DNA of 64,000 nucleotides from Oryzias latipes (taxonomy: Eukaryota; Chordata; Actinopteri; Beloniformes; Adrianichthyidae). How positions within the stretch are numbered: position 1 is the stretch's first letter; each line of letters starts with the position of its first letter. Positions 47,691 to 58,900 of this stretch are shown in pieces. The notes beneath the pieces are model-generated. The model was not told the DNA's origin and did not search any database. It saw only the letters and a program-made list of their open reading frames with translations. Location: positions 1,625,541-1,689,540 of the forward strand of contig NC_019877.2 in assembly GCF_002234675.1 (NCBI RefSeq). The letters are read 5' to 3'. A program made the translations under genes and the position numbers.

Positions 47691-48508
47691 CCTCCCCGCT
47701 TGACTGCTGCCGTCTACATTCATAACTATACCAATGATCTTGCCTCTCCATTGCGTGGTGGCACCATTATTTGCGACTGTAGCATTAAACATTTGCATTT
47801 CTGTTGTTTTGTGAGTGTAAAAGCAGATAAAAGCTCAATATTGTTGCTTTCCAGTCACTACTAAACTTTTTTTGGATATTTGTTTTTTGTTAGCTTGTAC
47901 CATAAATTAAATAACCTGGTGATGGCCACATTTCTTTTGCCACATCCTAGTTCCAAGTAAAACTTTAATGAGATAATATGAATTTATTTACTTGCAGTTT
48001 TGAACAGGAGCAATCTCCTCACAATAAGAACACCAAACATTCAACCTGATTGTTTTCATTTCTTAAATTTGGTTAAAAATTATCTCCATTAAAAAAACAA
48101 TATTTGGGTCTATGGCTTTATCATGCCGATTTGCTCATCGCCATCTTGGTTGTTTGTTTCAAAAATGGGCAAACAAGCCTTTAGTTGATGGAACCTGCTC
48201 AGTAAGGCCATTTTGGTATTGTCACCTTATAGTCGAAATATTGTCTTTTAAGTACAATTTCAACGATAAACAGAAAAATAAAGCAGTAATTATTGTAATA
48301 TGGAGATCAAAAAGCTTGTCACACACAGAAAGTGTGTTTCTGGCGATTGTAAAAATGAGCCATTCTACATAAGAGTGATCTAGGGCTGCCTTGCTTGTGG
48401 CACAAGCTCCATAATTTTCATATCAAGAACACTCAAATATGAAGAATAAAGTGCTATGTTCTTCACAAAATGACATACAAGCGCTGCAGTTGAATGTGAG
48501 GAGTCAAC

Positions 48509-48514
48509 TTTATT
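48509..48514 (-). terminator. antxr1: candidate antxr1 polyadenylation signal (one per unit)
   Basis: AATAAA on minus, about 1.56 kb past the unit's stop codon, followed in sense by ATGTGAGG-complement sequence. Identical sites lie at 51434-51439 and 54355-54360. Other TTTATT sites closer to the stop (near 48941 and 49036) are alternatives. Confidence 0.35.
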
Positions 48515-55914: not shown

Positions 55915-58900
55915 TCAGAGCTGAAGGCTTGGGGGAGGGCGAGACGGAGGAGGGCAAGGAAGCCCCGGGGGCGTGCGGGATGGCGGCGGAACCTGGGGCA
56001 ACTGGCCAGAGGGGGGCGATCGCGCTGGAGGGCTGATGGAGGTGGGCAATGAGGGGACGCTGCGGGGGGCAGGGCGGTAGTCCGGAGGAGGTGGCGTCGG
56101 GGTGTGGACACGCGGTGGAGCTTTGGCGGCAGCTGCTTCGTCTTTTACTCGTGTGAAGTTGATGCAGCGACCCTAGAAGGAGGAGCACAAATGTGTCAAA
56201 TACTGGAATTTAAAAAACATATTGGTGCTGCCTCACAATGCTAACCAGAGATCCAAGACCACAAAGCAGCGATCGGATATGATTAATGATTTTAGGGTGC
56301 AATGCGACGTTCAAAGCCCGGGACGTAACCGTCCCTTTACGCAATTACCGTAAACCATCGGATTCTGACGTGGAGTTAAGCAGTTTGACACCAAATGCAT
56401 CACTTTCACAACCCTTTGGACTCACAGAAAATCTGCGTAAACGGAAATTGAGCAAACTATTGTCGAAAAGAGACGTTTTGACTTTTGTTATTTGATGTCT
56501 GCCTCCAGCCTATGTTAAATATTAATATTTAAATTACACTTTTGTTTTTAACATTTAGATTCTTAATTACCATTTTACATTTAGATTTAACATTCATCTT
56601 AAACACTTATCATTCATTTACAAAATAATTATGCTTCCAAATAACCCATATAACCCATTTGTTTGCATTAATTTCTGACATCAAGGTAATGAAAAATGCA
56701 GCAGATATTAGAAAAGTTGGCTAAATCAGATGAAAATGTCAGCTAATTTTTATTGGCTGAACTTTTACATTCAGCGCAGCATAAATCTGGGCTAAGAAGT
56801 GAGTTGAGCTCAGGTCAAGGTACGGTCACAACGTTCTGTCTCTGTGAGCCCGTGCACGTTTGCACGGTCAGCCGGTTCACTGGATTACATGTAAATCTGT
56901 GCTTTTTGCTCCACATGATCCCAGCCAGCCTGAAGTTCTTAGCCTGTGCTTCTGCGTCAAAGTTCTGGTCCAGATGGAAATGAAACCATGAGGTTGGTGG
57001 CAAAGCAGGGCTGTGCGTTTGGAAGGTGTAAAGCTCACCAATGATTCACACGATTCCAAACAAGTCATAAAACGCCGGACAGACCACAAACTCCAGCAGG
57101 TTCACGGAGGCGGAGGTTTCCATAGAAACCAGCAGCTCTCCAGCTGCCTGTGGTCTGCAGACGGTATGATGCTAACCTGCTAATAGGCAGTGGGAAGGAT
57201 CAGAGCCACAGAAGAAACGTCTGCATAACGGAAAATGAGACTGAGGATTTTAATTCCCAGCTAAAGCTGCAGGCAGAGAAGAGGAATGTGGATTTGGAGC
57301 ATTTGAAACTGCAGAGCTGAGCTGCGGTGGAAAAGCTGAAAAGGTGTGTGCATCTTGTGAAGCTGTTCACATCAGTGCAGCAGCTGCAAAAGGAGCTAAA
57401 AGCTACAGTAAATACTTGAAAAAGAACCGTTTGTGCAGCTTCAGTGTCATTTGTGCTCATTTCATTTCTCAAAGGAACATTTGTTCCCGTCTAATCTGGA
57501 TTACTGTTGTTAACAAGTTGGTCATCTATAACCCTCATTTAGGCCCAGAGCTTCTTATTCTAAGAAATCATTTAAACGGTTTCAACATTCCTGCTCTCTG
57601 CTCTCATGTGGTCAAAGTTTTACAGTTCTGTAAACAATTTAAAAGGTTCCTTATGTAATGATGAGGGTGAAAATGACTCGCCGAACGTTTGAGAAATACA
57701 AATGTACAATAATGCAGTGTTTTTCAACCAGTGTGCCGCGGCACACTAGTGTGCCGTGGGAGATGGTCAAGTGCGCCGTGGAGAAATTGCCCTCATTAAC
57801 TGATCTAAAAACATTTTCCATCTCCAGGATTTCAGCTCTGTGTTCATCCAAACAGGCCCTGATAAAACACTGAGAAGTTAAGAATATGAAATATCATAAA
57901 ATAACTTTTTTTTGTGTTTATTTGATTCTATTAAAGACATTTTGATAAGAATCACGGTACCGCGATTTAGCTGCAGCTATAACTGTGTAAGGAAAAGTCC
58001 CGCCCCTTTAACTGTCTCCGCCAATCATTCTTGAAGGCTTAATCACATGTCATCATTCTGACCAATCAGAAGTGGTTAAAGTCTTCACTTCCTTGTTCTT
58101 AATTCTGCTGATAAAGTCGCTCAGTTCTAACAAAACCACCAGCTAAAGCTCGTCTTTAGCTGGTGGTTCATCTCTTAGAAAAAGAAAGCCGCAACTTCCT
58201 GCTTTTTCTGCCACAATTATCACAAAAATGCACGTGAGATTGCGCTGAGGGGGGGGGGGGGTGCTGTCGATCAATACAGATCATGAATTTCTGCTTTTTT
58301 TTTTTTTTTGGATGCTGGTGTGCCGCGGGATTTTTGTCAGGGTTAAAGTGTGCCGTGGCTCAAAAAAGGTTGAAAAACACTGCAATAATGTAAACAATAT
58401 CAGAAATATCTGCAAACCTTTCTGACTTACATAAAGCAGGTGTTTTGAAGATCATCAATCAACTCTTTTAAAAAAAAATCTAAACACAACAAATAAAGGC
58501 ATTTACTCCATATACAGTAAATGCTTTTCACAACTGAAGCCTTCAATGGGAATCAAACCTGCCACTGTGAACAGGAAGGATCTGACTGATGTTCATTCTG
58601 TCCTGCAGGAGTCCTGGACCACAAGGACCAGAAAAAATGTTGGTTTCAGCAGTTTTCACGAAAGCCGCTGGAGGCTTTGATGATCAGTTTTTCTTTCAGG
58701 TTTATTGGTTGCTTCTTATAATCACAGAAATATAATCTGGACTTAATCTGTTTTAATTCCCATAAATGAAATAAATGAAACTGTCTACCCCCCCCCCCGT
58801 TAAAATAATAATAACTAACACCTAATGATGCTTCATGGCTTCAGACTTTTCCATTGTTTTTTGGTTTGCTTTGATGAGAAATCATCATTTGGAAGGATTG

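Follow-up and report, generated by a model that had tools for sequence, protein, structure and literature searches.

Does the medaka Oryzias latipes carry the last exon of one of its genes three times over and, if so, how did the copies arise and which of them is likely to be used? The question is raised by the window analysed here, a 64,000-nucleotide stretch of DNA (contig 19, positions 1625541-1689540, of an assembly of 734,051,031 bases in 25 contigs), in which an antxr1-type last exon stands, together with its 3' untranslated region, in three consecutive, near-identical, head-to-tail copies at 48124-56886 (coordinates are those of the window throughout). Three head-to-tail units of this exon had been proposed in a first-pass annotation, and self-comparison, BLAST identities and unit coordinates bore the proposal out; the array start moved by one base, from 48125 in that annotation to 48124 here, because one T is common to both unit ends. 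The units are:

Unit U1: 48124-51048, minus strand, 2925 nt, the farthest from the upstream exons
Unit U2: 51049-53969, minus strand, 2921 nt, a mosaic that is U3-like at unit positions 13, 229 and 400 and U1-like at 1690/1691 and 2660
Unit U3: 53970-56886, minus strand, 2917 nt, the nearest to the donor

The start-to-start distances are 2925 and 2921, and the array totals 8.76 kb. When the region was compared with itself by BLAST, the array matched itself one unit further on at 99.73% over 5847 nt, and U1 matched U3 at 99.49% over 2926 nt; the array is not a chance pattern. With U3 as the query, and with only the best candidates scored, 42 matches were obtained in the whole assembly, of which three were full-length and constituted the array itself, while the other 39 were short pieces: 30 on a dispersed repeat (unit positions 2546-2815), seven on a CA repeat and two near 2364-2430. 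No further full copy of the unit was found elsewhere in the 734-Mb assembly by DNA and protein searches, again among the best candidates scored; a fourth protein match (E 3.67) was rejected as a further copy of the exon, having no GRC-NFTR start in the frame translated. Nor was a second tandem array of kilobase-long units found in the surrounding 164 kb (of which 5,000 bases are N), which do hold arrays of short units and a dispersed 2-kb repeat present twice, 57 kb apart. Two other features of the window were recorded in passing. A TCCA tetranucleotide array of about 177 copies occupies 40034-40738, where GC skew is -0.456, and an open frame just left of the array (47250-47678, minus strand) gave a Pfam MC1 match below the cut-off of 23 (18 bits, E 0.0035) and perhaps represents, as a guess, the remains of a mobile element.

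The exons on which the interpretation depends are:

Terminal exon coding part, U3 copy: 55915-56172, minus strand, 85 codons plus stop, with the acceptor CTTCTAG just before 56172
Terminal exon coding part, U2 copy: 52999-53256, minus strand, identical to the other copies
Terminal exon coding part, U1 copy: 50078-50335, minus strand, identical to the other copies
Penultimate exon: 60974-61054, minus strand, 27 codons, with the donor GTACGT after 60974 and a Pfam Ant_C match of 9.2e-14
Exon before the penultimate: 61320-61487, minus strand, most of Ant_C (Pfam 7e-24), with edges placed by eye from AG/GT sites

Sequence comparison upheld the first-pass statement that the same acceptor, 85-codon exon, stop and candidate polyadenylation signal are present in every unit. 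The three copies of the exon (258 nt each, that is, 85 codons and the stop) are identical, as are the 60 nt preceding each of them, and the donor after 60974 matches the terminal exon in phase 0. Each unit retains 713-714 nt 5' of the exon, which is enough for a branch point and acceptor, and 1945-1954 nt 3' of the stop. Since exon and acceptor are identical in all three copies, short reads across the splice junction would not reveal which copy they come from. The identity of the exons is accounted for by the youth of the array: with the substitution rate seen across the array, 255 nt would carry 0.53 changes on average and the probability of none is 0.59, which rules out reading selection or constraint from it.

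That the exon is an antxr1-type terminal exon, as first proposed, is supported by paralogous exons in the same genome and by a closer match of the gene to ANTXR1 than to ANTXR2. The Ant_C family (PF05586) was matched above the cut-off by both upstream exons listed, while the tail exon itself, of which two copies were scanned, matched no Pfam family. Two pieces of VWA exons lying beyond the window, when joined (47 residues), scored 49.5 bits against solved ANTXR1 in the PDB and at most 37.7 bits against ANTXR2; neither piece gave a Pfam match by itself, and the first VWA exon and the remainder of the VWA domain were not located. One 30-residue piece matched Anth_Ig (PF05587, 5.3e-5) at 24 bits, below the curated cut-off of 26.9. 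An exon near 62308 that encodes a hydrophobic stretch and CCTV was recognised by motif only, Pfam giving just a weak unrelated match. A PDB search with an Ant_C exon returned three matches (E 0.43-0.44), all to one unrelated enzyme.

Across the genome, Ant_C gave 12 matches at six loci. At three of the five other antxr loci the last Ant_C exon is followed by a terminal exon starting GRC[IVM]NFTR, present once in each (112, 12 and 126 codons), and no repeat was detected when the stretches fetched for these paralogues (6.7-7.3 kb) were compared with themselves. The fourth locus (contig 15) showed no exon of the GRC-NFTR type in 7.46 kb; for the fifth (the second of contig 9) coverage was limited to its 3.2-kb locus, which contains N. 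In a four-row alignment of terminal exons, the residues G R C and N F T R are invariant. The terminal exon of the paralogue on contig 12 (L030, position 736) comprises only 12 residues (GRCVNFTRVRTR), without a Pro-rich tail.

Among the neighbours in the window, three of the eight open frames scanned had Pfam matches: two mms19-like exons on the minus strand, at 16679-17149 (MMS19_C, 1.7e-15) and 22125-22652 (MMS19_N, 3.1e-6), and an exon at 31131-31511 on the plus strand matching UBD (5.4e-26), from a ubtd1-like gene. Because this mms19/ubtd1-like neighbourhood is different from that of human ANTXR1 at 2p13, the gene may be an antxr1 paralogue and not the one-to-one orthologue of human ANTXR1.

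The differences among the units bear on how the array was formed. Outside the microsatellite, U1 alone differs at unit positions 13, 229 and 400, where U2 and U3 agree, and U3 alone differs at 1690/1691 and 2660, where U2 and U1 agree; the AC repeat counts 12, 11 and 7 units in U1, U2 and U3, respectively, so that U2 is closer to U1. The middle copy is thus a mosaic of both its neighbours, over five informative events and in the direction predicted for unequal crossing-over. This mosaic was absent from the first-pass annotation and points to a two-copy ancestor and unequal crossing-over: a left copy A and a right copy B that crossed unequally would yield A, B-then-A and B, and U2 fits B-then-A. 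Position 1690/1691 sits in a C-rich run, and no two copies share the length of this run or of the AC repeat next to it; assemblies err in a C-rich run beside an AC repeat, and one of the five informative events falls there. Within the expected transcript, this C/AC tract (unit positions 1690-1712, some 240 nt downstream of the stop) distinguishes U3 from U1 and U2, and position 400, 9 nt ahead of the last AATAAA, distinguishes U1 from U2 and U3.

The alternative that survives best is an unlikely one, namely that the true number of units is one or two and that the assembler looped through the repeat to make three, which over two real copies would yield the same mosaic. According to the accessible part of PMC5705604, the mean subread for medaka Hd-rR was 6,519 bp at about 109-fold coverage, with assembly by FALCON and polishing by Quiver, so the 8.76-kb array, if it comes from that strain, exceeds the mean subread; at that coverage, however, reads longer than 9 kb should be plentiful. 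There is, moreover, no N in the window or within 60 kb either side of the array, the inbred state of Hd-rR, if that is the source strain, would make haplotype duplication unlikely, and U2 has C-run and AC lengths of its own, although such tracts are error-prone too. Even two real copies would still amount to a duplication of the terminal exon.

The same sites were weighed against a triplication in one step, for example by repeated template switching, in which U2 would have stayed unchanged while U1 and U3 gained private changes. The five events fit such a star history, under which the lack of a private substitution in U2 has a probability of about 0.13; against it, the sites sort left and right as crossing-over predicts (a clean sorting of 3 + 2 sites in the predicted direction has a chance of 1 in 10 under random order), and in AC length U2 stands closer to U1. 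We consider a single step improbable. As five informative events are few, the case for crossing-over is fair and not overwhelming.

The initial duplication left its own traces. Between U1 and U3 there are 4 to 6 substitutions over some 2.9 kb, a divergence of about 0.14-0.21%, which implies either a recent first duplication or an origin of the two copies in slightly different alleles. The breakpoints overlap by 1 bp (one T), and the local alignment score of the breakpoint flanks was 15 (16 when inverted), compared with a mean of 14.2 and a maximum of 21 in 200 shuffles; the first duplication thus appears to have been non-homologous, with unlike sequences joined at the breakpoints. Each unit does contain a repeat in its intron part, as follows for U3:

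Dispersed repeat fragment, U3 copy: 56515-56784, no strand assigned, ending about 100 nt inside the right breakpoint

The 30 other matches of this repeat have 67-85% identity and lie on many contigs. An exchange between transposon copies at the two ends of the unit was nevertheless rejected, on the evidence of the right flank and of the breakpoint alignment: the repeat stops about 100 nt short of the right breakpoint, the 500 nt to the right of the array matched nothing in the genome but themselves, and the flanks align no better than shuffled sequence.

Our preferred reading, young duplication followed by unequal crossing-over, would run as follows. The starting point would have been a 2.92-kb segment made up of 0.71 kb from the 3' end of the last intron, the terminal exon's complete coding part and some 1.95 kb of sequence beyond the stop, which a non-homologous event would have copied in head-to-tail orientation. 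A small number of differences between the two copies would have existed from the outset or arisen later; unequal crossing-over, somewhere in the interval from unit position 400 to 1690, would then have placed a third, mosaic copy in the middle.

Which copy a transcript would use depends on splicing and on the candidate 3' ends, the latter being:

AATAAA in U3: 54355-54360, minus strand, about 1.55 kb after the stop and followed by a GT-rich stretch, consensus match only
Copies of the 54360 AATAAA in the other units: beginning at 51439 and 48514, minus strand, consensus match only
Further AATAAA in U3: beginning at 54887 and 54790, minus strand, consensus match only

Each unit has three AATAAA after the stop. 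Of 1000 first-order Markov sequences fitted to the post-stop stretch of U3, 2.3% contained three or more, which is mild evidence. More signals of the AATAAA type occur left of 48124, outside the array, and the native 3' end could instead lie there. When four donor-like patterns were sought in the part of U3 downstream of the stop, a single CAGGTA (55124) was found, and onward splicing to U2, by which the stop codon would come to lie upstream of an exon junction, therefore looks unlikely. A transcript that takes the U3 acceptor could probably terminate within that unit. Because each unit has an intact acceptor and signals of its own, splicing should as a rule go to whichever copy lies nearest the donor, so that the donor at 60974 would be joined to the acceptor it reaches first (56172, in U3) and the 3' end would form at a polyadenylation signal of U3. 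It is most likely, judging from the sequence, that no copy but U3 is used and that the protein stays as it was. U2 and U1 would then be redundant, each yielding an identical protein tail in case it were used, and the copy number of the array would be expected to vary with the protein unaltered; the tandem duplication is probably young and harmless. Taken as a whole, the account of a young non-homologous duplication, unequal crossing-over, use of U3 and redundancy of U2 and U1 is, in our judgement, probable.

Two more elaborate roles for the array were also considered. It is improbable that the array is a copy-number-variable last-exon cassette, in which alleles carrying anything from one to several full sets of terminal exon and polyadenylation region segregate in the species and their number alters message level or the choice of 3' end while the protein stays untouched. 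That all three copies are functional alternative last exons, with every acceptor and polyadenylation site used and the array tuning 3' UTR choice or message level, is very improbable: each unit has acceptor, exon, stop and candidate signals, and tandem terminal exons with alternative 3' splicing do exist in oyster AOX (PMC5589949, accessible text), but here all copies encode an identical tail and a nearly identical UTR, and the array's youth accounts for the lack of differences among the exons.

The kind of event is already known, and the array is a young three-copy case with identical coding parts. In oyster CvAOX, as described in the accessible text of PMC5589949, the terminal exon with its stop is duplicated, and its two diverged copies give two expressed variants by alternative 3' splicing. 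The medaka array resembles it in that a terminal exon with stop and 3' UTR sequence (the UTR being predicted in our case) is multiplied head to tail within one gene, and differs from it in having three copies with an identical coding part, known from genome sequence alone. In Drosophila simulans and D. mauritiana, according to the accessible part of PMC8794474, the Y-linked gene kl-2 has additional copies of its exons 8-12 at the 3' end; there too the last exons of a gene have extra copies, although kl-2 involves several exons on a Y chromosome and the antxr1-type array one exon. Human ANTXR1/TEM8, in the portion of PMC3422265 consulted, has 18 exons, the last being exon 18, and variants V4 and V5 use sites inside it; the triplicated medaka exon is likewise the last of its gene, whereas human exon 18 is single and its variants do not come from exon copies. 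We found no paper on this array among those retrieved for antxr1 in medaka, zebrafish or teleosts, judged by title, or for exon duplication, in a search whose coverage excluded most subscription journals.

At a practical level, multi-mapping at the 3' end of the gene can mislead gene prediction as well as the alignment of reads. Should several copies turn out to be in use, the handful of sites that distinguish them would provide a natural test of splicing choice among equal last exons. The array captures terminal-exon duplication cleanly at its earliest stage, and its mosaic middle copy shows how it may have grown.
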